In this document: one piece after another, positions 956 to 57,343 of the stretch
How the letters are laid out: each line of letters begins with the position of its first letter
Numbering within the stretch: position 1 is the first letter of the stretch
NCBI RefSeq assembly: GCF_019721995.1
Contig: NZ_BLYC01000004.1
Location: 1 to 64,000, forward strand
Length of the DNA stretch: 64,000 nt
Reading direction: 5' to 3'
Origin: Bathymodiolus japonicus methanotrophic gill symbiont
GTDB taxonomy: Bacteria; Pseudomonadota; Gammaproteobacteria; Methylococcales; Methylomonadaceae
Program-made: the position numbers and the translations under genes
Notes under the pieces: model-generated
What the model saw: the letters and a program-made list of their open reading frames with translations, nothing else
Database searches by the model: none
Told to the model about the DNA's origin: nothing

Positions 956-1235
956 CGCTGAAAATCATGGAAACGGAGCTTAGCGAAGTGGTGATTTTTA
1001 GTCCCTGATAGGCGACAGGGCAATTCGCTGATTCGACGTGTGCTAGCAGCACGCGAGAGGAGCAAGAATTGCATTCCGAATAGCCGTCCAGCCAGTGAGG
1101 TAGTAATGACGAAGCGGCTTTTGTGCGTAGTCGTTGCGGACGCAGGGCGTTCAGGGCATCTCCCATCCGCTGCGTAGGTGAACGAATTATGGCGACAGGA
1201 GTCCCGGAATTTCGTGAGGTAGCATGGCGCGCCTG
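956..1235 (-). repeat. R1 short insertion element, copy 1 (280 nt)
   Basis: Full-length R1. On the minus strand it starts CAGGCGCGCC (1235) and ends TTTTCAGCG (956). It separates the ISa remnant from the sequence downstream of oadB. No target duplication is seen at its edges. Two sense frames are open through the whole element, which generates protein-like translations that are not supported as genes. Confidence 0.9.
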
Positions 1236-1435
1236 GTGATTCCTTATTTTAGTTAAATTAATTTACCTTTGGTACTTAGGTAACTCGCAACAAATAATCC
1301 ACCTACCTTGCTTGTCTTTTTGTCCGTCTTCTGTGTTGTAGAAATAGTTACGTAGCCTGCTATGCGCCGTGCCTACGCCTTGAAGGCGAACAAAAATCCT
1401 GCGCAATATTGGTAGGTTATTTATTGCGTGTTACC

Positions 1436-2563
1436 TTACTTCACTAAACTTAGCAACACCCCGGCAGCAACCGCAGAACCAATAACTCCGGCCACATTAG
1501 GTCCCATCGCATGCATTAACAGGAAATTATGCGGGTTATTTTCCAGACCTACTTTATTTGCCACTCGTGCGGCCATCGGTACGGCTGAAACGCCTGCTGC
1601 TCCAATCAGTGGATTAATAGGCGTATCGCTAAATTTATTCATTACTTTAGCCATGATGACACCAGATGCAGTGCCTATACAAAATGCAATCGCGCCTAAG
1701 ACTAGAATTCCTAAGGTTGTTTCCTGAAGAAATTTATCTGCACTCATCTTTGAGCCTACGGCTAGCCCTAAGAAAATAGTGACGATATTGATTAATTCAT
1801 TTTGCGAAGTTTTGCTTAAACGCTCTACTACGCCGCAGACATTCATCAAGTTACCCAGACAAAACATGCCTACCAAGGGAGCCGCTGAAGGCAATAATAA
1901 AGTACATAGCGTAATCAGCATCAGTGGAAAGATAATCTTCTCGGTATTACTGACAAAACGTAATTGTTGCATTTCTATGCAACGTTCTTCTGGTGTTGTC
2001 AGTGCGCGCATGATAGGTGGCTGAATCAAAGGTACTAGTGCCATATATGAATAAGCCGCAACGGCAATGGCGCCGAGTAAATCAGGGGCTAATTTAGAGG
2101 CTACGTAAATTGCAGTTGGTCCATCAGCACCACCAATAATAGCAATGGCCGCAGCATCGGACATGGAAAACTCCATGCCCGGAACCATATTAAGGGCTAA
2201 AGCACCGAGTAGGGTCGTAAAAATACCAAATTGTGCTGCAGCACCTAATAATAAGGTCTTAGGGTTAGCCAGCATGGGACCAAAGTCAGTCATCGCACCA
2301 ACGCCCATAAAGATCAATAAGGGAAAAACCCCAGATTTAATTCCTTCATATAGGTAATACAATATACCGCCAGGCTCGGCAATTCCAGCGACCGGAATAT
2401 TACTTAGAATCGCCCCGAAACCAATAGGAACTAATAATAAAGGCTCAAAATCTTTTTTTATGGCGAGAAAAAGCAATAAGAAGCCTACCAGCATCATAAC
2501 TAGTTGTGGCTCCTCAAAATTATAAATCCCCGTGCTTTGCCACAGGCGAGTGAGATTTTCCAT
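1436..2563 (-). CDS. oadB: Sodium-translocating oxaloacetate/acyl-CoA decarboxylase, beta subunit
   Basis: 375 residues, the usual length of the integral membrane beta subunit of biotin-dependent Na+-pumping decarboxylases (OadB/GcdB/MmdB family). It accepts carboxybiotin from the alpha subunit and couples decarboxylation to Na+ export. About ten hydrophobic segments are visible, with the conserved stretches [20 protein letters not shown] and [12 protein letters not shown] near the pore and [13 protein letters not shown] toward the C terminus. The ATG at 2561-2563 begins [13 protein letters not shown]. It lies 98 bp downstream of oadA on the same strand, and the set oadG-oadA-oadB is in functional order. 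Whether the substrate is oxaloacetate follows from the alpha subunit and is inference. Confidence 0.93.
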
Positions 2564-2661
2564 AGAATGTCTCTATTTGTAGTGTGTTGTAAAAAGAATT
2601 AAGCCCTCATCAACGCAGGTTGACAAGGGCTTTTAAGGTGGGATTTTAAAGCGCAGCTAAT

Positions 2662-4455
2662 CTATAAGGAAACTAGAATATCACCGACAGAAACAGTATC
2701 GCCTTCTTTAATATTTATCGCGCTAACGGTACCTGCAACTTTGGTGCGCACTTCGGTTTCCATTTTCATTGCTTCCATAATTAGTATCACATCGCCTTCT
2801 GCAACTGCAGCACCGATATTGACATTTATTTTCAGGATATTTCCAGCTAGCGGGGATTCGACTATAGCACCGGTTGCTGATGGAGCTTCAGCAACCGGGG
2901 TTGATCCTGCTCCTGCTGGCTGAGGCATCTCTGCCGTGGAAATTGCCAGACCAACGCCGCCTGGGCCAACAGCAACATCAAAGCTCTGACCATTAACATC
3001 AACGGTATAACGTTCTACTTCAGCTTTCGGTGCATTTTTCGCTGCAAAGGCTTCCGGATTAGGTGCTGGCTCAAAAGCGTCAGGATTACCGCGATTCGCA
3101 ATAAATTTCCAGCCAACCTGTACAAACAGGCCATTAATCAGCGCATCTTCTTCAACGTTTTTTGCTAAAGTCACACCTTCTTGTTTTGCTTTTGCTTGCA
3201 CTTCGGCAATCAAGGCATCCATTTCTGGCGAGATTAAATCAGCGGGGCGACAGGATATAACTTCGCCACCCTCTTCTAAGACCAGCGCCTGTAATTCTGC
3301 ATTAACCGGTGCCGGCGTTTTACCGTATTCGCCTTTTAGTACGCCTGCGGTTTCCTTACTAATTGATTTATAACGCTCGCCGGTCATGACGTTTAATACC
3401 GCCTGGGTGCCTACTATTTGCGAAGTGGGTGTTACTAAAGGCAGAAAACCTAAATCTTCACGCACACGCGGAATTTCTTTCAGTACCTCATCAAACTTAT
3501 CTGCCGCACCTTGCTGTTTAAGCTGGCTTTCCATATTGGTCAACATACCACCTGGTACTTGAGCTAATAGAATTCGACCATCTACGCCTTTTAAGCTACC
3601 TTCATGCTCGGCATATTTAAGGCGTACATTTCTGAAATACGCGGCAATATCTTCCAGCTTTTCTAAATCCAGACCGGTATCACGCTCTTGTCCAGCCATG
3701 GTGGCAACAATTGTCTCTGTAGGACTATGTCCATAGGTCATACTTAGGGATGAAATCGCGGTATCAACATTATCAATACCCGCTTCAATTGCCTTAATTA
3801 AAGTACCCACACTTAGCCCAGTTGTTGCATGGCAGTGTAAATGCACAGGAATATCCACCGCACTTTTAAGCTGTGACACTAAGTCATAAGCGGCATAAGG
3901 CGTTAGCAAACCGGCCATATCTTTAATGCAAATAGAGTGCGCACCCATATCTTCAATTTTTCTGCCTTGCTCTATCCATTTAGCAGTCGTATGTACCGGG
4001 CTCAAGGTATATGAAATAGTCCCTTGGGCATGTGCATCAGTATTTAATACCGCTTTGACTGCATGCTCGATATTGCGCATATCATTCATCGCATCAAAAA
4101 TACGGAATACATCAATCCCGTTAACGACGCAGCGTTCGACAAATTTATCGACTACGTCATCCGCATAGTGCCGATAACCCAGTATATTTTGCCCGCGGAA
4201 TAGCATCTGCTGCGGTGTCTTCGGCATTGCAGCTTTTAATAAACGTAGTCTTTCCCAGGGATCTTCGCCGAGATAACGAATACATGCATCAAAAGTTGCG
4301 CCCCCCCAGGATTCTATAGACCAATAGCCAACCTGATCTAATTTCTCACAGATAGGCAACATGTCTTCAATACGTAAACGCGTTGCCAAAATCGATTGAT
4401 GCGCGTCTCTTAAGACGACTTCAGTTATGCCTACCGGCATGCTTGGTTGTGTCAT
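2662..4455 (-). CDS. oadA: Oxaloacetate decarboxylase alpha subunit (carboxyltransferase with biotin domain)
   Basis: 597 residues. The N-terminal carboxyltransferase TIM barrel opens with [18 protein letters not shown], which carries the RDAHQS metal/substrate motif, and includes [11 protein letters not shown] with metal-binding histidines. A conserved carboxylase domain follows to about residue 470, then a Pro/Ala-rich linker. The C-terminal biotinyl domain has the attachment motif EAMKMET (the lysine between the methionines carries biotin). It transfers CO2 from oxaloacetate to biotin and passes it to OadB in the membrane. The ATG at 4453-4455 gives [13 protein letters not shown]. The gap to the upstream oadG holds a 152-bp MITE. 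Pyruvate carboxylase B subunits look alike, but the adjacent beta and gamma genes favour the pump. Confidence 0.93.
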
Positions 4456-4543
4456 GATGTAATTATTTCCTCTGCCTTTGCAGCCGTAGATTCTTCTTAC
4501 CTTGTGGGTAATAGTTCAATCTTTTTACCTTTAATGAGTAATA

Positions 4544-4695: not shown

Positions 4696-4706
4696 TAATA
4701 GAATAT

Positions 4707-4961: not shown

Positions 4962-5030
4962 TAACCATTATTATTAAATTTCCAGCATTATCGCTAAAAA
5001 TTGAGTACTTAACAACTTTCTCTACACTTT

Positions 5031-5310
5031 CGCTGAAAATCATGGAAACGTAGCTTAGCGAAGTGGTGATTTTTAGTCCCTGATAGGCGACAGGGCAATT
5101 CGCTGATTCGACGTGTGCTAGCAGCACGCGAGAGGAGCAAGAATTGCATTCCGAATAGCCGTCCAGCCAGTGAGGTAGTAATGACGAAGCGGCTTTTGTG
5201 CGTAGTCGTTGCGGACGCAGGGCGTTCAGGGCATCTCCCATCCGCTGCGTAGGTGAACGAATTATGGCGACAGGAGTCCCGGAATTTCGTGAGGTAGCAT
5301 GGCGCGCCTG
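5031..5310 (-). repeat. R1 short insertion element, copy 2 (280 nt)
   Basis: Full-length R1 on the minus strand, with CAGGCGCGCC at 5310 and CAGCG at 5031. It lies directly upstream of oadG in the same orientation, in what should be the promoter or 5' leader of the oad genes. It shares the ACGTAGC variant near its 3' hairpin with copy 7 (50720). No target duplication is visible. Confidence 0.9.
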
Positions 5311-13237: not shown

Positions 13238-13440
13238 CTGAAGTTTCCCAATTATTGAGTAGCTGAAATACACAATGCTGGTGTATCGAGGTTTATTTTA
13301 GGTGGTTTTGCCATGTTTATAGCAAACCCCTACTTAATTCCCCTTAGGCAATAGCATTTGAAACGAATGAAAAGACTATTTTTTCATATAGTTGTAGCAT
13401 AGTTTCAATTTTACCATAAATAATTATTGGGAAACTTCAG
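13238..13440 (-). mobile_element. MITE D, copy 2
   Basis: A 203-bp copy in reverse orientation that begins on the base after the nifJ stop codon TAG. Both CTGAAGTTTCCCAAT ends are present. The two flanks do not match as an 8-bp duplication; the right flank is an IS200 remnant, so the junction was probably rearranged after insertion. Confidence 0.88.
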
Positions 13441-13442
13441 TT

Positions 13443-13649
13443 GTAAAAATACCCCCCAAGGTTTCAGTATCAGATTTAGTTGGAAGAGTAAAAGGAAAAA
13501 CTGCAATTCAAGCTTTCCAGAAATTCCGGAGCTTGCGAACAAAGAAGTATTGGGGGAATCATTTTTGGTCGGCTGGTTACTGTGTTGATACCGTAGGTAT
13601 GGATGCAGAAATGATAAGAAAGTATGTAAAGTTCCAAGAAAATAAATAA
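13443..13649 (+). pseudogene. IS200/IS605-type TnpA (Y1 transposase), C-terminal remnant
   Basis: The frame ending at TAA 13647-13649 gives about 68 residues matching the C-terminal half of IS200-type TnpA: PPKVSVSDLVGRVKGKTA, then YWGNHFWSAGYCVDTVG and MDAEMIRKYVKFQE. The last segment carries the tyrosine that acts as nucleophile in this family. The N-terminal half with the HUH metal site is gone, replaced at its left edge by MITE D. These enzymes move single-stranded DNA bounded by hairpins without target duplication, so this remnant matters for the origin of the short insertion elements (see findings). Confidence 0.85.
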
Positions 13650-18219: not shown

Positions 18220-18807
18220 CCCATCTTCGTCACTCGCTGAAAATCATGGAAACGGAGCTTAGCGAAGTGGTGATTTTTAGTCCCTGATAGGCGACAGGGC
18301 AATTCGCTGATTCGACGTGTGCTAGTAGCACGCGAGAGGAGCAAGAATTGCATTCCGAATAGCCGTCCAGCCAGTGAGGTAGTAATGACGAAGCGGCTTT
18401 TGTGCGTAGTCGTTGCGGACGCAGGGCGTTCAGGGCCGCTGCGTAGGTGAACGAATTATGGCGACAGGAGTCCCGGAATTTCGTGAGGTAGCATGGCGCG
18501 CCTGTTTATCTTTCTAAGCTATTGATTCATCGGTTTGAGCGATTTTTTGTCGAAAAATTCTCTTTAAAATCAATGGTGTTTTTTTTGAAAGTTTTATAGT
18601 GCTATTTATATTATTTTTGTCGATAAATTCATTGACTTTTGTCAAAAAACCATCATTATTTGAGTGTAATTTACATGCGACAAAAATACTCTAAAAAATT
18701 CAACGTTTTATACAAAAACACAAAATCTGTAGTGCCAACTGGCTACTTTTCAAAATTTCAACCAATTGATTTATAACAACTACATCATCAATAGTGACGA
18801 AGATGGG
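18220..18807. mobile_element. MITE or small IS in mscS, 15-bp terminal repeats, containing R1 copy 3
   Basis: Perfect inverted ends CCCATCTTCGTCACT (18220-18234) and AGTGACGAAGATGGG (18793-18807) are flanked by a 4-bp duplication CTAA (18216-18219 and 18808-18811). It splits mscS between FIAIL and GAAGLAVG. Without the R1 copy it is about 318 bp, AT rich and without a recognisable gene. Its family is unknown; no transposase with these ends is in the window. Confidence 0.85.
18235..18504 (-). repeat. R1 short insertion element, copy 3 (270 nt, 10-nt deletion)
   Basis: An R1 copy lacking ATCTCCCATC, so 270 rather than 280 nt. Its CAGCG end abuts the 15-bp terminal repeat of the surrounding MITE exactly. 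It is on the minus strand like mscS. Confidence 0.88.
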
Positions 18808-18931: not shown

Positions 18932-19211
18932 CGCTGAAAATCATGGAAACGGAGCTTAGCGAAGTGATGATTTTTAGTCCCTGATAGGCGACAGGGCAAT
19001 TCGCTGATTCGACGTGTGCTAGCAGCACGCGAGAGGAGCAAGAATTGCATTCCGAATAGCCGTCCAGCCAGTGAGGTAGTAATGACGAAGCGGCTTTTGT
19101 GCGTAGTCGTTGCGGACGCAGGGCGTTCAGGGCATCTCCCATCCGCTGCGTAGGTGAACGAATTATGGCGACAGGAGTCCCGGAATTTCGTGAGGTAGCA
19201 TGGCGCGCCTG
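18932..19211 (-). repeat. R1 short insertion element, copy 4 (280 nt)
   Basis: Full-length R1 within mscS, sense to the gene. It is separated by only 5 nt (19212-19216) from a divergent class B element. The two appear to be independent insertions at almost the same point in the channel gene. Confidence 0.9.
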
Positions 19212-24091: not shown

Positions 24092-25323
24092 CTATGTCAG
24101 AGCTGCATCATATTCTTTATCCTGACTCGCCATCGCCCACAGTATTCGGGCATTTTCATTGGCCAGCGCAACGGCGGCTTTATTAAATCCACGCCGCTCA
24201 ATGAGTGCTTGTAGCCATAGGCTTAATTTGTCTTTTTTACCACTACAGTGCTTTAACACCGATCGTGCTCCATGAATTAACATCGTACGAATATAGCGGT
24301 TACCTCGCTTACTAATTCCTAAATAAACCTGATTATCACCACTGCTATGTTGTCTCGGAACAATCCCTAAGCTGGCTGCATAATCTCGGCTACTCTGATA
24401 GCTTTTACCTGTCCCTATGTCTGAGGCAATGATGGTGGCTGTTATTGCCCCAATACCTGGCACATCAAGAAAACGCTGGCTTAACTGATTGCTATTACAT
24501 AGCCGGCTAATACGTCTGTCCTGTTGTTTAATCTCTTCATCTAGTGCAACTAGTTTTTCATATTGCTCAGCAAACATTTCCCGACTTAAATCAGTCAAAT
24601 CATTGTCGCTATCTTCTAAAATCAACGGTAATTCTACTCTTACTTTCTTTATACCTTTAGGAATAACAATGCCTCTTTCACTGAGTAGCCCTCGCACTTG
24701 ATTAACCAGCGCAGTACGTTTGTCAACAAGGCCTTCACGTATTCTATGAACGAGTTGAATGTCTTGCTGTTCAATCGTTTTTATCGACACTGTGCGCTTA
24801 TTTGGACGGGTAACCGCATCAAATATAGCAGCGGCATCATTAAAGTCATTTTTGTTCCCCACAACAAAACCCTTTACATAACGGGCATTAAGAAAAATGA
24901 CTTCATGCCCTTGTTTAGCTGAAGTTTCCCAATAATTATTTATGGTAAAATTGAAACTATGCTGCAACTATATGAAAAAAATAGTCTTTTCATTCGTTTC
25001 AAATGCTATTGCCTAAGGGGAATTAAGTAGGGGTTTGCTATAAACATGGCAAAACCACCTAAAATAAACCTCGATACACCAGCATTGTGTATTTCAGCTA
25101 CTCAATAATTGGGAAACTTCAGTTGTTTAGTTAACTCTCTTGCCCAGTGATGAGCTCCGCCACAGGCTTCTATTCCAATTAAGCTCACTGGATAATTTGC
25201 AAAAAATATTAAAAGCTCAGCTCGTTTTAGCTTTTTCTTAACAGGTTGTGATTTTTTTTCATCAAATGTATACATGTGAAAAATATTTTTTGCTATATCC
25301 AATCCAATTACGCTATTATTCAT
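24092..25323 (-). pseudogene. IS110/IS1111-family transposase, split by MITE D
   Basis: The N-terminal part (25323-25123) has the RuvC-like DEDD start NSVIGLDIAKNIFHMYTF and the second acidic residue in IGIEACGGAHHWARELTKQ. The C-terminal part (24918-24092) continues GHEVIFLNARYVKGF with NDFNDAAAIFDA and carries the transposase_20 region (LDVPGIGAITATIIASD, then the Ser-containing SLGIVPRQHSSGDNQ). Removing MITE D and one copy of its 8-bp duplication rejoins KQ to GHEVIFL in frame, so the MITE is the only visible lesion. Confidence 0.9.
24919..25122 (+). mobile_element. MITE D, copy 3, with perfect 8-bp duplication
   Basis: 204 bp with CTGAAGTTTCCCAATAA and TTGGGAAACTTCAG ends, flanked by TTGTTTAG on both sides (24911-24918 and 25123-25130). 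It interrupts the IS1111 transposase. This copy fixes the target-duplication length at 8 bp. Confidence 0.93.
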
Positions 25324-28732: not shown

Positions 28733-30256
28733 TTAAGGCATGCAATTACCTACCTCTACGCCATTATTATAAAGGCTACACCCAATTAGCGTTCCATCTA
28801 AAGCATAGGATTTCATAGTCATTATTTCACCTTCTTCAGTGAGTTCATACTGAAGTTGCCCGGTTTCATAGTAGCCCAGAATAGTACCAACCTGGTCGCC
28901 GTTTACATAAGGCATTTCTCTCATAAGGGCTCCTGATTCATAATACTCTCTTATGATGCCATGTCGTTCACCGTTAACATATGGGAGCTCTATAGCAAGT
29001 TGCCCGGATTCGTAATAGCCTATTGCAAGCCCGTTGGAATAGCCATCCGTTACAGGAGTTTCCGCTTTAAGCTGTCCCGATTCATAGTATTCTTTGACAA
29101 TTCCGTGTATTTTGTCGTTAACATAAGGGACTGCCTCTCCGAGTTGACCGGATTCATACGCTGAAAATCATGGAAACGGAGCTTAGCGAAGTGGTGATTT
29201 TTAGTCCCTGATAGGCGACAGGGCAATTCGCTGATTCGACGTGTGCTAGCAGCACGCGAGAGGAGCAAGAATTGCATTCCGAATAGCCGTTCAGCCAGTG
29301 AGGTAGTAATGACGAAGCTGCTTTTGTGCGTAGTCGTTGCGGACGCAGGGCGTTCAGGGCATCTCCCATCCGCTGCGTAGGTGAACGAATTATGGCGACA
29401 GGAGTCCCGGAATTTCGTGAGGTAGCATGGCGCGCCTGATAGCCTTTTTCTATACCATGCTTATCGCCACCTACATAAGGAGTTTCTCCCCTGAGCCGGT
29501 CAGACTCATAGTATCTTTTTTGCGTACCATGCATGATTCCATCTATATAGGGCGTTTCTTCTCTAAGCTGACTGGAATCGTAGTAATATTTTTCTAGCCC
29601 ATTTAACTGCTTGTCAATATAGGGCGCGTCAATAAAAAGATGGCCATCATTGTCGTACCCACAATAAATATAGTCCTCAAACATAACATCACCATCCTTA
29701 TCGCGAAGATTAAGTTTGATCGAGTGATCAGTAGAGTCATTATCAAGCGCCGGGTCATAAGTCACTGGACACGTAGTAGCGGGGAGCGGTGGTGGAGTTA
29801 TATCTGATGGGTAATATATATATTCAGCATCTTCTGAGTCATAATTGATCCCATCCACTACAACCCTGGCAAATGCATATACATAAATATTTGCATATTC
29901 CGAGTCTTCAATTTTGAGAGTGGTCGGGCCAGTGTACCTAAATTCAGGGCTTGAATAATATTCATCAAGTCGATAATAGAGGTCGCCTTCACCCTCAACT
30001 GAAAGGGTCAGGATGGCACTAAATTCAAATGTACTACTCTCTGGGCTTGCCGTCGGTTTATTAGGCACTTTGGGCATGATTAGTTCGTTACTTATCGCGC
30101 CGTCTTTAAGTTCGGCAACAATGCGTACTGGTCCTGCTGCTAATCCATCTGGTACACCAGTCGATAAACCCGCATCGCTAACCCTGCTGGCAATTCCCTC
30201 TATCCTGTTATTTTTATAATCGATAAAATAGATATGTGCCAGTTCACTAAGTCCAT
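28733..30256 (-). pseudogene. YwqK/MORN-like repeat protein, truncated by an IS end and interrupted by R1
   Basis: Read on the minus strand, the frame enters from an ISa end at 30256 (DDGLSELAHIYFIDYKNN), so its N terminus is missing. A beta-rich region with an FEFSAILTLSVEGEGD-type sheet leads to about seven tandem repeats of roughly 24 residues with the pattern YYESGQL..E.PYVNG..HGI.KE, as in YwqK-family proteins. R1 copy 5 sits inside one repeat. Deleting exactly 280 nt gives GIEKGYYESGQLGEAVPY, a perfect repeat unit. Function is not known; it is probably secreted or surface exposed. Confidence 0.8.
29159..29438 (-). repeat. R1 short insertion element, copy 5 (280 nt)
   Basis: Full-length R1, sense to the repeat-protein gene. 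The flanks are GGCTAT on the 5' side and TATGAATCC on the 3' side. Direct joining gives the Tyr-Tyr-Glu-Ser expected at this place in every repeat unit, so no bases were duplicated or lost. Read-through of the element shifts frame and meets a stop 3 nt past its end. Confidence 0.93.
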
Positions 30257-32191: not shown

Positions 32192-32471
32192 CGCTGAAAA
32201 TCATGGAAACGGAGCTTAGCGAAGTGGTGATTTTTAGTCCCTGATAGGCGACAGGGCAATTCGCTGATTCGACGTGTGCTAGCAGCACGCGAGAGGAGCA
32301 AGAATTGCATTCCGAATAGCCGTCCAGCCAGTGAGGTAGTAATGACGAAGCGGCTTTTGTGCGTAGTCGTTGCGGACGCAGGGCGTTCAGGGCATCTCCC
32401 ATCCGCTGCGTAGGTGAACGAATTATGGCGACAGGAGTCCCGGGATTTCGTGAGGTAGCATGGCGCGCCTG
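32192..32471 (-). repeat. R1 short insertion element, copy 6 (280 nt)
   Basis: Full-length R1, sense to the IS30 transposase. The flanks GCGGACAAA and AAGGCAGGG join in frame with no duplicated base. One base (CCCGGGATTT) differs from the consensus. Confidence 0.93.
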
Positions 32472-32495: not shown

Positions 32496-33669
32496 CTCGA
32501 TGTTCAAGTTTTTCCATCCCATTGCCATCAAACTCTTACCTTCACCCAGCAGAACAATACTTTAATGATGGTGTTGGCTCTAAGCGCCCTAAATCTCTGC
32601 CAATCATATGTTTTCCTGATGGCATCAGTTGAAACACATCCTTTATTAATTCACCTAACTCTTTCAGCTTATCACCAGGATCTGGAAACTCTAGCAATGA
32701 CGTGATGAACTCAAGCAGTACATCCATTTGAGACTTGCGCTGTAAGCTTCCTACGGTATACGCAGTCTGATCAATGCCTTTGTTAATCGAATTAAAGTAG
32801 CTCTCGACTGACCTTATTCTACCTCTATATTCAATATTTTGGTTTTTACGTAATTGGCTAATCACCTGCGAGCCTCCAGATTCTTTAGCGGCTTCGTCCA
32901 TAAAGGCTTTTTCACCATACAGCGCATCAGCCAGTACGCCTTTAATTTTAATAAGGCTATGCGCAACTTTAAACTCTTTTAATAAGCCTAATGCAATCTC
33001 TGTTTTGGTCGGGTAGGCACTGTCACGTTCAGGCTTAATAGGCCGATCTTTTTTTGCTATACCGCTCTTTTTCAACCGTTTATCTTCTTTATCCCACTGC
33101 TTTAAGGCTGGATCCGGCATATAAAAGAAAAAACCGACAGGCACTGTAATGGATGAGGTAACTAGCAGCAATAATACTATCGTTTGTCCATTAACATACC
33201 CGCCGGAGCCTTTGTGTTTCTGCTTGTAAACCTTATAAATACGTTTTGTAGACTTAGATCGTGCTCGGTCTGATTCATCAAAGGCCAACACACCTTCAGT
33301 AATGCCATAACGTTTTAAAATTAAGACCACACTCACCCGTAGCAACCAGTCCCAGGGTATACTTGCTTTACGAAACACCCAGGATAATGCGGCTACTTTG
33401 CAATCTCCAAGGCTTGCTCGCTCAAACTTAGCCCAGCAAACAGAGTTCATTAGCAGTATGCCCGTTAAACAAGTGCCCAACCAAGCGGCTTGAATCCGTG
33501 TCAAAGCGGCTCCGGGTTTTAGCTGATTGAGCGCATCATTTAAATCGTCAATATAGCTTTGGATAAAGGTGGCTGGGGCATTCATTAACATGGGCTTACA
33601 CCGATAAAATTACAACAACCTCAGAATACCTGATTTTACCTTCTCAATATCAAAAACTTGAACATCGAG
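32496..33669 (-). mobile_element. ISc (IS4 superfamily), internally deleted copy
   Basis: The ends CTCGATGTTCAAGTTTTT (32496) and CAAAAACTTGAACATCGAG (to 33669) bound a minus-strand transposase gene (32542-33591, 349 residues). It lacks about 130 residues present in the copy at 35075, including the YREK catalytic segment, so it is inactive. The flanks do not form a duplication, consistent with loss of IS30 sequence at this junction. Confidence 0.87.
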
Positions 33670-33993
33670 TGAAAGTCTATAGGTGTGTATAGCTCATTTG
33701 TAGCCTCTGTAAATTGTTTGGTAGCTGTTTACTTTACACCTATGTCTTGTCTTAATTCAACAGGTGTTAGTCTAGCCAATACTTGCAGAGGGTTATGCAC
33801 TTATTATACGAATTCAGGTTACGTGAATTACACTGGTTACTGGAGGGTTTATCCTATCGGCAAGCGCAAGCTCATGCCGCTATTTCTGGCTTAATAAACA
33901 ATTGATTTGTTGCCGTTATTTTACGTTGAAAATATCTAATAAAACAGCCAGTTAAATGATTATTTAACCCTGTTTGGTGGTATAATAAACACC

Positions 33994-34996
33994 ATGAGAT
34001 CACTTCCTGAAACACTGCCAGACGAGACGAATGTACTGCACAAAATGGTGCTGGACTATCAGTCGACAGTGGATCAATTACAGGAAAAACTGACATGGTA
34101 TGAGGAGCAGTTTCGTCTGTTGCAACATAAGCGTTTTGGCACCTCCAGTGAGAAATGTCCGGGTCAAATGGAGTTGTTTAATGAAGCAGAGTCCATTCTT
34201 GATAGCTTAAAGCAGGATGATTCCGACCCTGAAGAAACCCTAAGCTATCAGCGTAAAAAGCCAGGCCGCAAGCCATTATCCAGAGATATCCCGCGCGAAG
34301 TTATCCGTTATGAATTACCTGAAGCAGAGCGTGTTTATGCCTGCGGTCATGCATTGCATGAGGCTGGCGAAGACAAGTCAGAGCAGTTAGAAATCATTCC
34401 TGCCCAGATCAAAGTCATTGAACATATACAGATCAAGTATGGCTGCCGCGCCTGTGAAAATGGCATTATCAGTGCACCAAAACCCGCACAGCCCATTCCT
34501 CGTAGTTTTGCCTCGGCAAGTTTATTAGCTTACATTATTGTCGCCAAGTTCATGGATAGCCTGCCACTTTACCGGCAGGAAACCATTTTCAAGCGCTTAA
34601 GTGTTGACCTTTATCGTGCCACGCTATCTAACTGGGTATTAAAGTCCGCTGAATTGCTCCAGCCCTTTTATGATCGACTGCATGCTCTGCTGATTCTACA
34701 GAAGATCCTCCAGGCCGATGAAACAACCTTAAATGTGATTCGGGATGGTCGAGAGACGAAATCGAAAATCCTATATGTGGCTCTATCAGAGTGGTGGGCA
34801 TGAATCCGAGCACCCGATCGTTTTGCATGATTATCAGTCAACGTGGGCAGGAGCGCATGCTGAAAGCTTCTTGCGGGCCTTTTCAGGTCACTTGCAAGTA
34901 GATGGCTATGCAGGCTATCATGCACTGGCATCAGATGATTGTATCCTCGTGGGGTGTATGGCACATGCGCGGCGTAAATTCGATGAAGCGCTAAAA
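33994..34996 (+). pseudogene. IS66 transposase TnpC, frameshifted and truncated
   Basis: The N-terminal coiled-coil/leucine zipper (YQSTVDQLQEKLTWYEEQF), the zinc-finger region (CRACENGIISAPKP) and the first catalytic Asp in LQADETTLNVI are present. Near 34762 one extra A in an A4 run shifts ETKSK out of frame with YMWLYQSGGHESE. The next frame continues through VDGYAGYHAL and CMAHARRKFDEALKL until ISc begins at 34997. The C-terminal third with the last catalytic residue is missing. Confidence 0.88.
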
Positions 34997-36526
34997 CTCG
35001 ATGTTCAAGTTTTTGATATTGAGAAGGTAAAATCAGGTATTCTGAGGTTGTTGTAATTTTATCGGTGTAAGCCCATGTTAATGAATGCCCCAGCCACCTT
35101 TATCCAAAGCTATATTGACGATTTAAATGATGCGCTCAATCAGCTAAAACCCGGAGCCGCTTTGACACGGATTCAAGCCGCTTGGTTGGGCACTTGTTTA
35201 ACGGGCATACTGCTAATGAACTCTGTTTGCTGGGCTAAGTTTGAGCGAGCAAGCCTTGGAGATTGCAAAGTAGCCGCATTATCCTGGGTGTTTCGTAAAG
35301 CAAGTATACCCTGGGACTGGTTGCTATGGGTGAGTGTGGTCTTAATTTTAAAACGTTATGGCATTACTGAAGGTGTGTTGGCCTTTGATGAATCAGACCG
35401 AGCACGATCTAAGTCTACAAAACGTATTTATAAGGTTTACAAGCAGAAACACAAAGGCTCCGGCGGGTATGTTAATGGACAAACGATAGTATTATTGCTG
35501 CTAGTTACCTCATCCATTACAGTGCCTGTCGGTTTTTTCTTTTATATGCCGGGTCCAGCCTTAAAGCAGTGGGATAAAGAAGATAAACGGTTGAAAAAGA
35601 GCGGTATAGCAAAAAAAGATCGGCCTATTAAGCCTGAACGTGACAGTGCCTACCCGACCAAAACAGAGATTGCATTAGGCTTATTAAAAGAGTTTAAAGT
35701 TGCGCATAGCCTGATTAAAATTAAAGGCGTACTGGCTGATGCGCTGTATGGTGAAAAAGCCTTTATGGACGAAGCCGCTAAAGAATCTGGAGGCTCGCAG
35801 GTGATTAGCCAATTACGTAAAAACCAAAATATTGAATATAGAGGTAGAATAAGGTCAGTCGAGAGCTACTTTAATTCGATTAACAAAGGCATTGATCAGA
35901 TAATACGTGTACGTGGCGGCAAAGAGATTAAAGTGACTGTCAGCAGTGCACGATTAAAGGTGAGTTCTCACAGTAAAAAACGCTTTGTCATTGCCTTAAA
36001 ATATGACGGTGAAAACGACTATCGCTATTTAGTGGCGACAGACCTGACTTGGCGCACACAAGATATTATTCAAGCCTATACGTTGAGATGGCTGATTGAG
36101 GTTTTCTTTGAGGACTGGAAGCTTTATGAAGGATGGGGGCGTGAGGCCAAACAATTAGATGAAGAGGGATCAAGCCGTGGCCTGATTCTGAGTCTTTTGT
36201 TTGACCATTGCCTTCTCCTTCACCCAGAGCAAATAGCCCGCATTGAAAGCAAACTACCTGCGTATACCGTAGGAAGCTTACAGCGCAAGTCTCAAATGGA
36301 TGTACTGCTTGAGTTCATCACGTCATTGCTAGAGTTTCCAGATCCTGGTGATAAGCTGAAAGAGTTAGGTGAATTAATAAAGGATGTGTTTCAACTGATG
36401 CCATCAGGAAAACATATGATTGGCAGAGATTTAGGGCGCTTAGGGCCAACAGCATCATTAAAGTATTGTTCTGCTGGGGAAGGTAAGAGTTTGATGGCAA
36501 TGGGATGGAAAAACTTGAACATCGAG
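34997..36526 (+). mobile_element. ISc (IS4 superfamily), complete copy
   Basis: 1,530 bp with terminal repeats CTCGATGTTCAAGTTTTT and AAAAACTTGAACATCGAG, holding one transposase gene. No target duplication is visible (left flank IS66, right flank an IS3-like fragment), so it marks a rearrangement or has lost its duplication. Its ends match the 152-bp MITE at 4544-4695. Confidence 0.88.
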
Positions 36527-36619
36527 TGTAATGAGGACGAGTATGCCAATTTACCACCGAGTCAAATCGTCCCTATCCTGGCAGACAAAGGCATCCGCTG
36601 TCAGCCCCGGACGGGCTGA
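35075..36619 (+). CDS. ISc transposase (IS4 superfamily DDE), reading past its natural end
   Basis: 514 residues as it reads; the last ~30 come from sequence beyond the IS end at 36526 and from the class C element, so the native protein is shorter or its stop was lost. The first Asp lies in LAFDESDRARSKSTKR, the second in GVLADALYGEKAF, and the IS4 YREK signature (Y-x2-R-x3-E-x6-K) in YTLRWLIEVFFEDWK. All catalytic positions are present, so it may drive the ISc-ended MITE at 4544. Confidence 0.87.
   Translation: MLMNAPATFIQSYIDDLNDALNQLKPGAALTRIQAAWLGTCLTGILLMNSVCWAKFERASLGDCKVAALSWVFRKASIPWDWLLWVSVVLILKRYGITEGVLAFDESDRARSKSTKRIYKVYKQKHKGSGGYVNGQTIVLLLLVTSSITVPVGFFFYMPGPALKQWDKEDKRLKKSGIAKKDRPIKPERDSAYPTKTEIALGLLKEFKVAHSLIKIKGVLADALYGEKAFMDEAAKESGGSQVISQLRKNQNIEYRGRIRSVESYFNSINKGIDQIIRVRGGKEIKVTVSSARLKVSSHSKKRFVIALKYDGENDYRYLVATDLTWRTQDIIQAYTLRWLIEVFFEDWKLYEGWGREAKQLDEEGSSRGLILSLLFDHCLLLHPEQIARIESKLPAYTVGSLQRKSQMDVLLEFITSLLEFPDPGDKLKELGELIKDVFQLMPSGKHMIGRDLGRLGPTASLKYCSAGEGKSLMAMGWKNLNIECNEDEYANLPPSQIVPILADKGIRCQPRTG
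36527..36595 (+). pseudogene. Fragment of an IS3-like integrase-type transposase
   Basis: About 23 codons read EYANLPPSQIVPILADKG, a segment common in IS3-family OrfB proteins just before the DDE core. It is bounded by ISc on the left and a class C element on the right, and nothing more of it is present. Confidence 0.65.
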
Positions 36620-36855
36620 TAGTCTCCAGAAGGCGCAGGGAAATTTGCCAATCCGAAGTGCGCGATAGCGCGCGAGGGAGGCTAAAATTTTATCCCGAAT
36701 AGCCGTAGAGCCATTTGTGGTAGCCATGACTGAGCTGCTTTGTGCTCAGTCTGTGGCGGACGCAGGGCGGCTGGAGCATCTCCTATTCGCTGCGTAGGTG
36801 AACGAATTACGGCGACAGGAGTCCCGGAATTTCGTGAGGTAGCATGGCGCGCCTG
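36596..36855 (-). repeat. Class C short insertion element, copy 1 (260 nt)
   Basis: It starts CAGGCGCGCC (36855, minus strand) and ends GACTATCAGCCC, loop, GGGCTGACAGCG (36596). It shares the 5' half with R1 but has a different centre and a shorter GC-rich 3' hairpin. On its 5' side lies a minus-strand coding fragment (36856-36969) in the same orientation. The other flank is an IS fragment. Confidence 0.88.
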
Positions 36856-36969
36856 AGCCCTTTGGGCCAATTAATTTGCCACCATCTGTAACAACAGCAT
36901 CCTGAACATGTCTATAGTTATTAACTATCTGATTATTTTCTTTATCTTTAACCTCAACACTAAGGTAGA
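36856..36969 (-). pseudogene. Gene fragment between a class C element and MITE D
   Basis: An open minus-strand frame reads SVEVKDKENNQIVNNYRHVQ then DAVVTDGGKLIGPKG. It has the composition of a surface or Ig-like beta protein, but no family can be named. It is cut on both sides by repeats. Confidence 0.4.
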
Positions 36970-37172
36970 CTGAAGATTCCCAATAATTATTTATGGTAAA
37001 ATTGAAACTATGCTACAACTATATGAAAAAATAGTCTTTTCATTCGTTTCAAATGCTATTGCCTAAGGGGAATTAAGTAGGGGTTTGCTATAAACATGGC
37101 AAAACCACCTAAAATAAACCTCGATACACCAGCATTGTGTATTTCAGCTACTCAATAATTGGGAAACTTCAG
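36970..37172 (+). mobile_element. MITE D, copy 4
   Basis: 203 bp with CTGAAGATTCCCAATAA and TTGGGAAACTTCAG ends. The left end carries one change from the consensus. The flanks show no 8-bp duplication. Confidence 0.88.
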
Positions 37173-42087: not shown

Positions 42088-43680
42088 ATGCTTAAAGACC
42101 TACCACTCTCTGAACATATTCACCAACACTGCAATGAAAGTATGGAACGTGCCCTGTTAGCAGAGCGTCATCCTTTGTGGGCTCGTTCATGCCCAGAGTT
42201 GAAGGATATCGACTTTATTCGCCTTGGGTTATTACGCTGTATCAGTGTAGTCGATAGTGGTCGCAATTTCCTCCAAACCAATGAACAGATTTATGGCCAG
42301 CTGCTTCCCCGCTCAACGTATTTTAAATCACTGAAGTCGCATAGACGAACAAGTATGCTTGAGGCATTTGAACAGCAGAGCTACCATCTTCACTCTGAAA
42401 CACTGCTATCGCAAGACATTGATTATCTTAAAGCATTCCCGGAACTTGAGGAATACACCATAGAAGCAGCGGATGGACATTTTATTGATCATGCCTGCCA
42501 TACTGAAAAAAACAGCAAGGGGAAGGTTTATGCGGCCGGGGGGATTTACGCGTTGAATCTCAGAAGTGGGTTGCTCAGATTTCTTTGTCTGGTGACAAAC
42601 GGAACTCAGAGACATCAAGAAATACCTGTGTTACGAGATCATATTGAAAAGCAAAACACGGGGAGTCGCTATTTTTGCGAAAGCTTGTTTTGGGCATCCC
42701 AGCCCAAGCAAGCAGCAAAAACTTAACGCGACCACTTATGCCTCCGGCGGCCCCGATTCGTCCTCGTCACCTCGTCCCGACCCAACAAGGGGTCGGAACA
42801 TAGGCTCCAAATGACTTGACGCCGTGTCGGATGGCCTTTTATTTTGTCTCCACCTTCGCTAACGCTCAGACTCCGACAAAATAACGGCCCTACGGCTATC
42901 GAGGACTAAAAATCATCACTTCGCTTAGGCTCCGTTTCCCTGATTTTCAGCGAGGGAAATAACAGCTCTCAGAAACATCTCTATGTCTACGATAAAGCCG
43001 TCACCGACTTTGTCTGGTGGGATCGGCAGAAACGAGATGCTAATTACATGATTTCAATGCTAAAAGAAAATTCAATTGCGACTCTGGTTGAGTCTATCCC
43101 TTTTGACTCCCGCCATGAGATCAATACAGGGGTTGAAGCATACAGTGTGTACGAAAACAAGGGCATCAAATTTAACGTGGTGGATTACCGTGATCCAGAA
43201 ACCGGAAAACTTCACCGGTTTGTGACAACCTTGCCAATGACTATTAACCCTGGAACCATTGCCATGCTGTATTTCAAGCGATGGACGATTGAAAAGACAT
43301 TCAATAACACTAAAAGTAATTTCAAGGAAACTAAAGCTTGGTCTTCCAGTACCCGCTCACTTGAAAATCAAATGCGCCTGACTGCAATGAGCTATAATTT
43401 AATGCGAGTGTTTGAAGAGATTTCAAAAACACAACAGCCAGAATTGATTCATCCATCGGATAAAAAATATAGCGAGGCTCTGGAGATTAGGCAGCAACAG
43501 GCCCAAAAACGAGATCGTTTTGTGAAATCATTATTTTTCCAGGCAAGAATATCTCGTATCAGCTCGTATACCATTCGAGCAGTTCAAAACGCAATAATAA
43601 CAGGAATGTCTTTACAGTGCTTTATGAGCTCTCTTGTGGCGAGGTTAGTTTCACGGCCTCAATTGATAGGGGAACACTGA
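42088..43680 (+). pseudogene. ISa transposase (IS4 superfamily), split by a class B element
   Basis: The N-terminal part (to 42658) matches the intact copy at 53785-55083, with DLPLSEHIHQHCNESMERAL and the first catalytic Asp in TIEAADGHFIDHACH. The C-terminal part (from 42953) has VYDKAVTDFVWWDRQ and the YREK signature in YFKRWTIEKTFNNTK. The intact copy reads QNKGNNSSQKHLYV across the break. In this copy the frame runs into the insertion after KQN. Confidence 0.92.
42659..42952 (+). repeat. Class B short insertion element inside ISa (empty site known)
   Basis: Sense to the transposase. The occupied site reads GCAAAACA, then CGGGGAGTCGC to CAGCG, then AGGGAAATAAC. The intact ISa at 53783 reads GCAAAACAAGGGAAATAAC. 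The net addition is 294 nt (293-nt body plus one C) with no duplicated target base. Confidence 0.95.
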
Positions 43681-43690
43681 TGGTATACAT

Positions 43691-48471: not shown

Positions 48472-48475
48472 GCAG

Positions 48476-49951: not shown

Positions 49952-50244
49952 CGCTGAAAATCAGGGAAACGGAGCCTAAGCGAAGTGATGATTTTTAGTC
50001 CGCGATAGCCGTAGGGCCGTTATTTTGTCGGAGTCTGAGCGTTAGCGAAGGTGGAGACAAAATAAAAGGCCATCCGACACGGCGTCAAGTCATTTGGAGC
50101 CTATGTTCCGACCCCTTGTTGGGTCGGGACGAGGTGACGAGGACGAATCGGGGCCGCCGGAGGCATAAGTGGTCGCGTTAAGTTTTTGCTGCTTGCTTGG
50201 GCTGGGATGCCCAAAACAAGCTTTCGCAAAAATAGCGACTCCCC
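49952..50244 (-). repeat. Class B short insertion element, copy in the secreted-protein gene (293 nt)
   Basis: It starts GGGGAGTCGC (50244, minus strand) and ends CAGCG (49952), sense to the host gene. The host reads FNPEI before it and, one base out of frame for a 293-nt excision, DGEVLIPRV after it. Keeping one G of the element gives FNPEIDGEVLIPRV. Confidence 0.92.
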
Positions 50245-50719
50245 AATTTCAGGGTTAAAGGTTGCGCGATAGGCGTCTACCACGTCTTCAACACTCAGCT
50301 CTTCTATAGCCGTCAAGATAAAATTAATGCCACCTTCTGAGCTACGAGCTTGTTGGGCTGGCGGATCTAACTCCGCCTCATACATCTTTTTACCAACGCG
50401 AACAATAGGGAGACGCAGTTTACCGGTAAGTGCTTCAAAAGTAGCTGCATTTCTGGCTGCTTGCTCAGTATTTAGAGGGTGTTGGTAATTTTGATTGCAT
50501 ATTGGTCGTCTCTGGTATGGAGAAGCCACAATATGTTCTTCACTGGTAGGATATGATTTTGGTTTTCCAGGTACTTCATTGCCATCTTGATCTTTAGTTG
50601 GAGCCCCATGGCCTGCTGCAGGACGAGTACCATTTTGTTTCTAACCAAAATAATGGACCCTTGAACACAGCTGTTTGGTTTGTCTTCATTCACTGGGGTA
50701 TCTTTATTGTTTTTGCCTT

Positions 50720-50999
50720 CGCTGAAAATCATGGAAACGTAGCTTAGCGAAGTGGTCATTTTTAGTCCCTGATAGGCGACAGGGCAATTCGCTGATTCGA
50801 CGTGTGCTAGCAGCACGCGAGAGGAGCAAGAATTGCATTCCGAATAGCCGTCCAGCCAGTGAGGTAGTAATGACGAAGCGGCTTTTGTGCGTAGTCGTTG
50901 CGGACGCAGGGCGTTCAGGGCATCTCCCATCCGCTGCGTAGGTGAACGAATTATGGCGACAGGAGTCCCGGAATTTCGTGAGGTAGCATGGCGCGCCTG
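50720..50999 (-). repeat. R1 short insertion element, copy 7 (280 nt)
   Basis: Sense to the secreted-protein gene. The flanks CCGCTTA and AAGGCAAAAAC join as CCG CTT AAA GGC, reading ISSPLKGKNNKDTPVNE without a gained or lost base. Confidence 0.93.
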
Positions 51000-51380: not shown

Positions 51381-51640
51381 CGCTGTCAGCCCCGGACGGG
51401 CTGATAGTCTCCAGAAGGCGCAGGGAAATTTGCCAATCCGAAGTGCGCGATAGCGCGCGAGGGAGGCTAAAATTTTATCCCGAATAGCCGTAGAGCCATT
51501 TGTGGTAGCCATGACTGAGCTGCTTTGTGCTCAGTCTGTGGCGGACGCAGGGCGGCTGAAGCATCTCCTGTTCGCTGCGTAGGTGAACGAATTACGGCGA
51601 CAGGAGTCCCGGAATTTCGTGAGGTAGCATGGCGCGCCTG
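51381..51640 (-). repeat. Class C short insertion element, copy 2 (260 nt)
   Basis: Nearly identical to 36596-36855. It lies antisense to the ISb transposase, but in the same direction as the secreted-protein gene that hosts ISb. Flanks CTTCCGC and TTCAAGATC join in frame with no duplication. Confidence 0.92.
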
Positions 51641-51709: not shown

Positions 51710-52002
51710 CGCTGAAAATCAGGGAAACGTAGCCTAAGCGAAGTGATGATTTTTAGTCCGCGATAGCCGTAGGGCCGTTGTTTTGTCGGAGTCTGAGCGT
51801 TAGCGAAGGTGGAGACAAAATAAAAGGCCATCCGACACGGCGTCAAGTCATTTGGAGCCTATGTTCCGACCCCTTGTTGGGTCGGGACGAGGTGACGAGG
51901 ACGAATCGGGGCCGCCGGAGGCATAAGTGGTCGCGTTAAGTTTTTGCTGCTTGCTTGGGCTGGGATGCCCAAAACAAGCTTTCGCAAAAATAGCGACTCC
52001 CC
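51710..52002 (-). repeat. Class B short insertion element in ISb (293 nt)
   Basis: Full-length B, antisense to the ISb transposase. About 100 codons of the transposase are missing exactly at this element, as if two B copies had recombined or the insertion had deleted DNA. Confidence 0.9.
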
Positions 52003-52179
52003 GATCAAAGCAAATATCCATGGGCACAAAACATTGTATCGGTAGGGTTGCTGAAACAGGTCAAAGGTCGCTGGGCGTGCTTATTTTTAGATTTCCGATT
52101 TTATCTCCCCTTAAAAACAATTCAGGCAAAAAAAGAAACCGCCACGATAAGAGGTGATGTCGTTCCTTTCCAGACCAAG

Positions 52180-52459
52180 CAGGCGCGCCATGCTACCTCA
52201 CGAAATTCCGGGACTCCTGTCGCCATAATTCGTTCACCTACGCAGCGGATGGGAGATGCACTGAGCGCCCTGCGTCCGCAACGACTACGCACAAAAGCCG
52301 CTTCGTCATTACTACCTCACTGGCTGGACGGCTATTCGGAATGCAATTCTTGCTCCTCTCGCGTGCTGCTAGCACACGTCGAATCAGCGAATTGCCCTGT
52401 CGCCTATCAGGGACTAAAAATCACCACTTCGCTAAGCTCCGTTTCCATGATTTTCAGCG
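52180..52459 (+). repeat. R1 short insertion element, copy 8 (280 nt, plus strand)
   Basis: The only plus-strand R1, lying sense in the plus-strand ISb transposase. CAGACCAAG precedes it and five G then CGGAAT follow. Exact excision is one G short of the expected frame (GGRNKKYGQRLG needs six G), within a G run where sequence error or slippage is likely. Confidence 0.92.
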
Positions 52460-55317: not shown

Positions 55318-55783
55318 TATTAGTATCATTCCTGGCAATGGGGGCGCTAGATCCATCAGATAAGTTGGGATCAGCATTGACATCAATAATTAACCGGGCA
55401 GTATCTGTCTGGCCAGATTCATTTGCAAGGGTATAGGTAAAGCTATCAATACCTACTCCACTAGAGGGCCGGCTAGCATTAGTTGTACTATCGAAAAGCT
55501 GGTAGGTATATTCGCCATCAGAGTCGAAAGAGGTAATTAGCCCATACTGGCCAACCCATGATTGCTCAAGCGTAGCGATAGTACCATTAATATCATTGCT
55601 TATAACATTGCCTTCAGCAACTATATAAACGCCAGCTACTGCAGAAATATGATCATCTCTCGCATTAGGATAGCTATTAGATGGAACAGAGGGAGTAGTC
55701 CCGCCCCTAAGTTGTAGGGCAAAGACATTGACTGAGCTGACTAAAAGAAGAGCTGCTAATATGGATGTGTGTTTTATATGCAT

Positions 55784-56156
55784 AAGGGGATATGTGTCTA
55801 AGACTGTGCAAGCAATTAGTATTGCTTAGAAGTTTAGTTTGTTTTTTTATATAGTCAAGCGCTACACCTGTGCCTGGGGGTTGTTATATTAAAAAAATAT
55901 TATGATATCAGTTATATAGATTCTTTCCGCCGCTTGTGCAGCAGCTATTGTAGTATCATGGGGTACGTGACTTAATATTTTTGTTAAATCAGGCGTTTAA
56001 AACGCGTTTATCCTTCAAAACAACACGGTGCTGCACGAACTTAATTATTACTCATTTTGCTAAAAAATTAATGATAGAATGCATAATTGCACAATCATCG
56101 TTTTGGTAGACTGAAGTCCGCCCTACATTATTGCTTGAAACAAAGAGGACATAATA
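55784..56156. other. Divergent intergenic region
   Basis: 373 bp between the divergent secreted-protein gene and the small secreted protein. It is AT rich and holds a partial REP-like palindrome (GTAGACTGAAGTCCGCCCTAC at about 56106-56126). Both promoters should lie here, but no box pair stands out. Confidence 0.5.
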
Positions 56157-56603
56157 ATGATAAAAAAATCTTTAAAAATAGCTTGTTTATTTGTCAGTAT
56201 TGGCTTTGCGGGTTCTGCATTTGCTTATAATGCAGGAAATACCGAGCGCAAGTGCCAGGATCCAAAATTTAAAACGTTTGTCCCTGCGCATAAATCAGAA
56301 GTCGATCCTGAATCAGAAATTTCATTTACGGTTTCCGGGTATGCTGATCCAACGACGATTAAGGCAACGGCTAAAAATGTGCCATTAGAGCTGACTATCG
56401 TTGATAAAAATAGTTTTTATGCTGTTTCGGCGAAGTTGCATGCATCTTTAACCGGGAAATATGCGCGGATTCATGTTAGAGCACATAATTCTGTGGAATG
56501 TAAATCTAAGGATGGCTGGTTGATTAAAATCAGGGATAAGCCAGCGAGCGCAGAAGCAGTTGAGACAGGTGCCATTGTAGAAGAGAGTGAGCAGGTTCAA
56601 TAA
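56157..56603 (+). CDS. Small secreted protein of unknown function
   Basis: 148 residues with a clear signal peptide (KKSLKIACLFVSIGFAGSAFA, cleavage after about residue 22). The mature part has a beta-sandwich look (EISFTVSGYADPTTIKATAK, LTGKYARIHVRAHNSVEC) with two cysteines and an acidic tail (VEESEQVQ). AGAGGACAT precedes the ATG. It is probably periplasmic. No family is recognised. It converges with the guanine deaminase gene and their ends overlap by a few bases. Confidence 0.75.
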   Translation: MIKKSLKIACLFVSIGFAGSAFAYNAGNTERKCQDPKFKTFVPAHKSEVDPESEISFTVSGYADPTTIKATAKNVPLELTIVDKNSFYAVSAKLHASLTGKYARIHVRAHNSVECKSKDGWLIKIRDKPASAEAVETGAIVEESEQVQ

Positions 56604-57343
56604 GGAATTTTATTTTCCAGTGCCTGCCATGCAATAAAAGGGCTAAGTGATTCGCTTAGTTGTAAATGGTGTATGGGTATTTCTCGTTTTTCAGGTGCTA
56701 GGGAAATTTTCTCATAGATAAAACTATCATCAAAACCTGCCTGCGCAGCATCAACGTGACTGCAGGCAAAAAAACCTGTTTAAGCCTTGCCCAGTAAATC
56801 GCGCCAAGACACATAGGGCAAGGCTCGCAACTACTGTAAAGTATGCAGTCAGCCAATTGAAAGGTATTTAATTGCTTACATGCTGTACGAATAGCAACTA
56901 TTTCTGCATGAGCGGTAGGGTCATTACAGCAAGTGACGGTGTTGGTGCAGGCAGAGATGATCTTTCGCTGAAAATCATGGAAACGGAGCTTAGCGAAGTG
57001 GTGATTTTTAGTCCCTGATAGGCGACAGGGCAATTCGCTGATTCGACGTGTGCTAGCAGCACGCGAGAGGAGCAAGAATTGCATTCCGAATAGCCGTCCA
57101 GCCAGTGAGGTAGTAATGACGAAGCGGCTTTTGTGCGTAGTCGTTGCGGACGCAGGGCGTTCAGGGCATCTCCCATCCGCTGCGTAGGTGAACGAATTAT
57201 GGCGACAGGAGTCCCGGAATTTCGTGAGGTAGCATGGCGCGCCTGTGATCTAAACAGATAATAGCAGCAAAGGGACCACCTTTTTTTGTGGCAACATTTT
57301 CTTTGGCTAAATCGACAGCTTGTTGTAAAAATTCTGTATGCAT
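56597..57343 (-). pseudogene. guaD: Guanine deaminase (CDA family), interrupted by R1 and frameshifted
   Basis: The N-terminal part (57343-57246) reads FLQQAVDLAKENVATKKGGP then FAAIICLD. After R1 the frame resumes KIISACTNTVTCCNDPTAHA with the zinc ligands in PTAHAE and CEPCPMCLGAIYWARL. Exact removal of 280 nt gives ICLDQKIISAC in frame. A T7 run near 56768-56774 needs one more T to continue as FFACSHVDAAQAGFDDSFIY and LSPFIAWQALENKIPY to the TGA at 56597-56599. The whole matches the ~155-residue B. subtilis-type guanine deaminase, which converts guanine to xanthine and ammonia. Confidence 0.87.
56966..57245 (-). repeat. R1 short insertion element, copy 9 (280 nt)
   Basis: Sense to the guanine deaminase gene. 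Flanks TTAGATCA and AAAGATCATC join as GAT CAA AAG ATC ATC, restoring the family sequence with no duplication or loss. Confidence 0.94.

Follow-up and report, generated by a model that had tools for sequence, protein, structure and literature searches.

Non-coding elements of a gill symbiont insert exactly behind CNNN on one strand, possibly through topoisomerase I

How can a short non-coding DNA element enter unrelated genes to the exact base and leave no target duplication behind? The question is raised by R1, a 280-nt element with several copies in the 64,000-nt stretch analysed here (the window), which comprises positions 1 to 64,000 of contig NZ_BLYC01000004.1 (assembly GCF_019721995.1) of the Bathymodiolus japonicus methanotrophic gill symbiont. 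R1 is one of three size classes of nearly fixed length, the others being class C (260 nt) and class D (295 nt); class C combines the right end of R1 with a left hairpin of different sequence and the same shape. The host, presumably a methane oxidizer, carries hundreds of copies of these short non-coding elements: 864 kb of its genome contain 218 left and 230 right ends, 8.0% of the sequence sampled in 63 tiles of 20 kb (1.26 Mb) consists of such elements, and the left module of R1 and D has 1,003 matches genome-wide, compared with none for a reversed control pattern.

We joined the flanks of 283 distinct insertion sites (132 R1, 82 C and 69 D) and sought uninterrupted copies of them in the sampled genome. 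After removal of six of the 116 junction-spanning matches for misfit length and of six for more than three mismatches, 104 clean paralogous empty sites were retained, at which no base is duplicated or lost. They yield an element length of 280 nt in 32/33 cases for R1, 260 nt in 40/42 for C and 295 nt in 24/29 for D. A looser set of joined flanks gave gap-free rows for 37/43 R1 and 43/49 C sites, and a 2-base gap in 26/34 class D rows. Left and right flanks share four bases at one of the 283 sites and six bases at another, so the target is not duplicated. Insertion of these non-coding elements is base-exact and non-duplicating, and the clean empty sites support this more strongly than had been claimed in the original prediction, which was made from the letters of the window.

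That prediction had counted nine near-identical R1 copies, and R1 does lie at the places it gave; we find eight copies of 280 nt and one of 270 nt (18235–18504). It had also proposed that deletion of R1 restores the reading frame of four unrelated genes and, indeed, joining the flanks produces continuous frames in all of them (gene names assigned by eye): a minus-strand repeat-protein gene occupied by the reference copy (29159–29438), an IS30-like transposase (32192–32471), a secreted-protein frame (50720–50999) and a guanine-deaminase-like (guaD-like) gene (56966–57245). Uninterrupted paralogues exist in the genome for the IS30-like transposase (18 matches) and for the insertion sequence (IS) that holds a class C copy at 51381–51640 (20 matches), the best being identical over the joined 82 bases in both cases. 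The latter copy had been expected to restore a frame as well; the paralogues bear out its exact insertion, but no joined frame exceeds 110 aa. Empty orthologous sites are present in relatives: the guaD-like gene is unbroken and free of alignment gaps across the R1 site in 7/8 relatives compared, and the eighth shows three gap positions, none of them within the 30 bases displayed at the insertion point. This comparison covered eight of ten loci, leaving out L331 (internal stops) and L332 (39% identity). Copy 8 (52180–52459) had been described as off by one base. This is not established: among the 12 matches listed, no other IS copy has the two flanks side by side, and no empty paralogue is seen.

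A single rule on one strand, 5′-CNNN^-3′ (^, cut), spans the target, the left junction and the right end. At 279/283 distinct sites (R1, 131/132; C, 79/82; D, 69/69) a C occupies position −4 of the left flank, and this target C pre-exists the insertion in 102/104 clean cases, in which the flank equals the empty copy with at most three mismatches. The mirror rule on the opposite strand is not seen, G occupying +4 at only 43/283 sites. These counts overturn the earlier statement that the flanks hold no target consensus, as does the window, in which all 16 elements with both ends follow a C at −4. R1 lies behind CGAA^ (956–1235), CTTT^ (5031–5310), CACT^ (the 270-nt copy), CAGA^ (18932–19211), CATA^ (the reference copy), CCTT^ (both the IS30-like transposase and the secreted-protein frame), CCCC^ (copy 8) and CTTT^ (the guaD-like gene), and a divergent R1-like copy of 291 nt lies behind CGTA^ (60107–60397). 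The 260-nt class C copies follow CATC^ (36596–36855) and CCGC^ (51381–51640). Class D follows CCAT^ (49952–50246) and CTGT^ (51710–52004) with 295 nt each, CTAT^ with an internally shortened copy of 290 nt (60495–60784), and CCCT^ at 42658–42952, where the coordinates span 295 nt and the empty site gives 294 nt. The copies at 42658 and 52180 lie on the minus strand and all others on the plus strand.

The element obeys the same rule at its own 3′ end, with a C at −4 in 104/104 clean cases; the last four bases are CCTG in R1 and C, and CCGA and variants in D. Class D ends vary, giving 293, 294, 295 or 296 nt, with GA, GC, GT, AA or AT as the last two bases among the 295-nt copies, and these four lengths are exactly the ones that place a C of its CCCC run at −4. 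A further, internally shortened copy of 290 nt ends in CCCCGC. Class D behaves as though cleavage were not tied to one particular C and could take donor flank bases along. Similar 3′ slippage in R1 and C would be too strong a reading: the 261-nt C copy carries an extra 5′ base, a 281-nt R1 copy is ambiguous, and slippage is clear only in class D. Once this extra base is assigned to the element, the target of the 261-nt copy reads CAAA^ and obeys the rule, and at a second of the four exceptions to C at −4 other copies of the IS read CCTT.

R1 had no match in 39 of 61 genomes. In other genomes and records, C stands at −4 in 27/27 rows (26 distinct places in 11 genomes, the rows of genome G059 counted), in 38/39 flanks from genomes G008 and G027, in 12/12 from viral, plasmid and one metagenome-assembled genome (MAG) record, and in 20/20 flanks read by eye; the sets of 27, 39, 12 and 20 overlap in part. 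A contig of the relative G008 and the Methyloprofundus sp. plasmid AP023241.1 carry R1 at matching positions, so that the host most likely belongs to Methyloprofundus (Methylococcales). Further occurrences of the left module are on Methylobacter and Methylomonas plasmids, in seven viral-contig stretches and in a Methyloglobulus MAG, the sole record from a scan with over-strict spacing, and a phage collection held no match to it. The G059 elements are likely contamination of that genome, since the copies lie on contigs C79 to C91, two of which have known lengths of 5,679 and 3,340 bases.

The elements of the host genome are oriented along the leading-strand sense (259 versus 95, p=1e-18; GC skew calculated without the elements, tiles of both skew signs), so that the element plus strand is the lagging-strand template. 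The bias is as strong whichever way the flanking genes point, with 28 versus 9 where both run against replication, 72 versus 30 where both run with it, and 47 versus 11 and 31 versus 8 in the mixed arrangements, and therefore reflects replication rather than transcription. This test was restricted to the 236/354 elements flanked on either side by a long frame no more than 2 kb away, and left out stretches with skew below 0.02.

The cutting rule resembles that of a known enzyme. Topoisomerase I and reverse gyrase prefer cytosine at −4, the contact positions are occupied by other residues in topoisomerase III, and loss of the arginine R169 changes the −4 preference, with an R169A variant reported to favour A there, according to an excerpt of PMC7587558. 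Escherichia coli TopoI recognizes the motif TCNTTA/T in vivo and cuts four nucleotides after the strictly required C (excerpt of PMC9352719). This substrate feature of type IA enzymes, C at −4, is found at 279/283 targets and at 104/104 clean 3′ ends. Relative to 225,628 background positions with C at −4, insertion sites are enriched in T at −5 (×1.70), A (×1.23) and T (×1.27) at −2, T at −1 (×1.59) and T at +1 (×1.48), and depleted in C at −5 (×0.23) and G at −1 (×0.10); these minor preferences match the E. coli motif at −5, −2 and −1 and partly at +1. A single type IA topoisomerase was matched in the host genome: TopA, which is encoded on the same contig and retains the R169 equivalent.

We tentatively favour a mechanism in which an enzyme that cuts at CNNN^, most likely TopA, cuts and rejoins hairpin-ended elements as single strands. 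R1, C and D would be non-autonomous and would move as one DNA strand, the plus strand, with the foot of a 5′ hairpin one base from the cut and a 3′ hairpin followed by a short tail ending in C-N-N-N. The enzyme would cut single-stranded DNA three bases past a C at the left junction, at the right end of the element and in a target on the exposed lagging-strand template. All three cuts would generate the same ends, CNNN-3′OH and 5′-phosphotyrosine, so that rejoining them in new pairs would insert the element with nothing duplicated or lost. TopA, a housekeeping type IA topoisomerase, would act as an accidental transposase. Exact insertion, the CNNN^ rule at the target and at the element's 3′ end, and the orientation bias of the host genome are observed directly; we infer that the intermediate is single-stranded, that the covalent chemistry is as described and, from the cutting rule, that TopA is the enzyme. 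With somewhat greater hesitation, we suggest that these elements may be mobile DNA without a transposase of their own or of a partner, folded strands put into the replication fork by topoisomerase I and reaching about 8% of the sampled genome in this way.

The hairpin ends are a model, supported in part and less certain than the cut rule. Among 19 aligned elements, 25/54 predicted pairs show changes on both sides; this structure alignment left out L277 and L278 of the 14 relatives' loci and included the G059 rows. A 5′ hairpin is predicted in the consensus of the 19 elements, a D-like consensus, the R1 RNA fold and the DNA folds of C and of the G027 element. Where present, its predicted foot lies 1–2 bases from the cut, and the predicted right hairpin of the G027 element stops six bases before the cut. 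R1 alone folds no better than shuffled sequences (z −0.59), and this holds for either strand.

Several findings weigh against topoisomerase-mediated strand transfer. The 5′ hairpin is missing from the consensus of 13 R1-like sequences and, in the DNA folds, from R1 and D; when folded as DNA, R1, C and D each have a base-paired 3′ tail. The strand bias is not significant in G008 (9 versus 5) or G027 (13 versus 9), where it has the same sign (stretches with skew below 0.02 left out). Two of the four exceptions to C at the target −4 stay unexplained, C is enriched at −3 (×1.69) and −1 (×1.48), which is absent from the E. coli motif, and at +1 T is enriched and A is not, unlike in that motif. The 3′-end rule draws on R1/C and D, which are two sequence lineages, and on variants found in relatives; the CCCC run of class D makes it easy to satisfy, and one copy from a relative (L274) has TCTG, in agreement with the rule only after its end is moved by one base. 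As for the enzyme, TopA of the host and of 11 relatives has Tyr rather than Arg at E. coli position 173 and Phe rather than Tyr at 177. TopA was matched in 18/18 genomes searched, whereas R1 has no match in 39/61, so that TopA cannot be the sole condition. A dedicated single-strand transposase sharing the −4 C habit would leave identical marks.

Such an enzyme could be a Y1 HUH transposase (IS200/IS605 TnpA or TnpA-REP/RAYT) acting in trans at an unusually relaxed site, CNNN^, which we regard as possible though doubtful. Strand-specific action on single-stranded DNA, a 5′-phosphotyrosine, lagging-strand bias and hairpin ends are typical of Y1 enzymes in excerpts of PMC6006769 and PMC8266576, and Y1 (PF01797) matches occur in 56/61 genomes, with 22 in the host genome. 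However, IS200/IS605 cut sites are set by a guide tetranucleotide directly 5′ of the hairpin foot (PMC6006769, excerpt), where the modelled foot of our elements leaves one base, and a Y1 enzyme would have to leave three of the four target positions free. TnpA-REP proteins cut at CT, one of them also at CA (PMC8266576, excerpt), whereas the rule of R1, C and D is CNNN^ and fixes no base at −2, −1 or +1. Y1 and reverse transcriptase genes show no simple concordance with the elements, R1/C/D or related sequence lies in 4 of the 50 Y1 loci examined (three places, in the element-dense genomes G000, the host's own, and G006), and one RAYT class is broken in the host genome and has no match in the element-carrying G027 and G015. 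Alternatively, the transposase could be dedicated and of a wholly unknown kind, neither HUH nor topoisomerase, with a preference for C at −4. No autonomous copy was found among the 218 left ends in 864 kb, and the partner may be lost or located elsewhere; the next right end is at least 400 nt away for 13 of these left ends, and the 13 long stretches, judged by their longest frames, contain nothing beyond short frames internal to the elements, unrelated IS and genes of the host. We consider this unlikely, as it demands an unseen enzyme that coincidentally shares the cut rule of topoisomerase I.

Group II introns favour the lagging-strand template, and insertion of the element at the replication fork as a structured RNA, through reverse splicing or through reverse transcription, would accommodate both this orientation and the paired changes on both sides in the predicted plus-strand structures. 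We nonetheless judge an RNA route distinctly unlikely. Reverse transcriptase (RVT_1) has five matches in the host genome and none in G022 (100% complete) and G003 (91% complete), which both carry elements, and the retro-mobility proposed earlier is not needed there. R1 has no Rfam match at curated score, the relatives' loci give only weak sub-threshold matches (E 0.04 to 8.9), the fold of R1 does not exceed its shuffles, and an RNA model offers no reason for the CNNN rule at the element's own 3′ end. An assembly or annotation artefact might be suspected in a 109-contig assembly containing near-identical repeats, but the relatives make it very unlikely: elements obeying the rule are found in G008 and G027 (two contigs each) and on the named plasmid, and the guaD-like gene is whole in relatives. 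Hairpin-guided single-strand transposition is the best of the candidates first put forward, favoured by the one-strand cut rule, the lagging-template orientation and a 5′ hairpin in several folds though not all, while defining features of IS200/IS605 and REP, with which it had been linked, were absent when tested.

Additional features were noted alongside the elements. Two of the three minus-strand frames of R1 are open, which creates long chimeric open reading frames at insertions that could be misannotated as genes. Solo hairpins of about 48 nt consist of the R1/D left end closed by GATTTTCAGCG, with no remaining element (C1:303494 of the host genome, L103; L081 at 1006). A repeat family of about 205 nt with inverted-repeat ends CTGAAGTTTCCCAAT / ATTGGGAAACTTCAG, resembling miniature inverted-repeat transposable elements (MITEs), occurs in the window at 682–889, 13238–13449, 24915–25122 and 36965–37172, and copies elsewhere in the genome host R1, C and D insertions. 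Two IS copies (32766–33670 and 34996–35900) form a 905-nt inverted pair, 100% complementary, around an apparent IS66-type transposase fragment. The host genome also contains a RAYT-like gene of E. coli type that is apparently broken by stop codons (C16:36052–36482; L232, L247).

Among the literature matches listed, covering titles and the starts of abstracts with few subscription journals, we found neither topoisomerase-driven transposition of an element nor, for repeats of Methylococcales or Methyloprofundus, a description of R1, C or D. If TopA does move these elements, an enzyme of every bacterium can serve as a transposase and mobile elements need neither own nor borrow a transposase gene. 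This would provide a testable route for non-coding elements that insert without duplication, and possibly a tool for inserting single-stranded DNA after CNNN. Whatever the enzyme, other genomes can be searched for the same signature, a one-base rule common to the target and the end of the element.

The IS200/IS605 family inserts without target duplication. R1, C and D share this property with IS608 and ISDra2, as well as insertion 3′ of a short site, on one strand and with preference for the lagging-strand template, and a site-like tetranucleotide at the right end too (PMC6006769, excerpt). They differ in lacking a transposase gene, with no Y1 gene inside an autonomous copy in 864 kb, in fixing one of four target bases instead of a guide-paired tetra- or pentanucleotide, and in a modelled left hairpin that leaves no room for a guide. 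REP sequences are palindromes of 20–40 bp, tagged at one end with GTAG or CGTC (PMC3733652, search listing). The likeness to REP, BIME and REPIN lies in high-copy palindromic non-coding DNA and in left-end solo hairpins (two in the host genome, one in G031); our elements, however, are about ten times longer (260–295 nt), begin with CGCTG, in place of GTAG or CGTC, reside in genes too, and follow CNNN^ instead of CT or CA.

HEARO, the IscB omega-RNA, is a structured element of about 300 nt that inserts without duplication at ATGA or GTGA. R1, C and D are similar in length, predicted structure and absence of duplication, and differ in their CNNN target; an RF02033 search (no match to the host genome at E ≤ 1, and scores above the cut-off in 2 of the 37 genomes covered) together with sequence comparison ruled out HEARO identity. 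Relative G041, unlike the host, has six strong HEARO RNAs (RF02033; L206 and L210–L214). A MITE of a DDE transposon would carry inverted repeats and duplicate its target, whereas the ends CGCTGAAAATC and GGCGCGCCTG are not inverted repeats and no duplication is seen. CNNN^ with its single fixed C fits neither IS200/IS605, TnpA-REP, HEARO nor duplicating ISs. The closest counterpart of the rule is bacterial topoisomerase I, which likewise cuts a single strand four bases downstream of a cytosine in a TCNTTA/T-like context; its known role is to cut and reseal DNA, whereas R1, C and D are elements that move.

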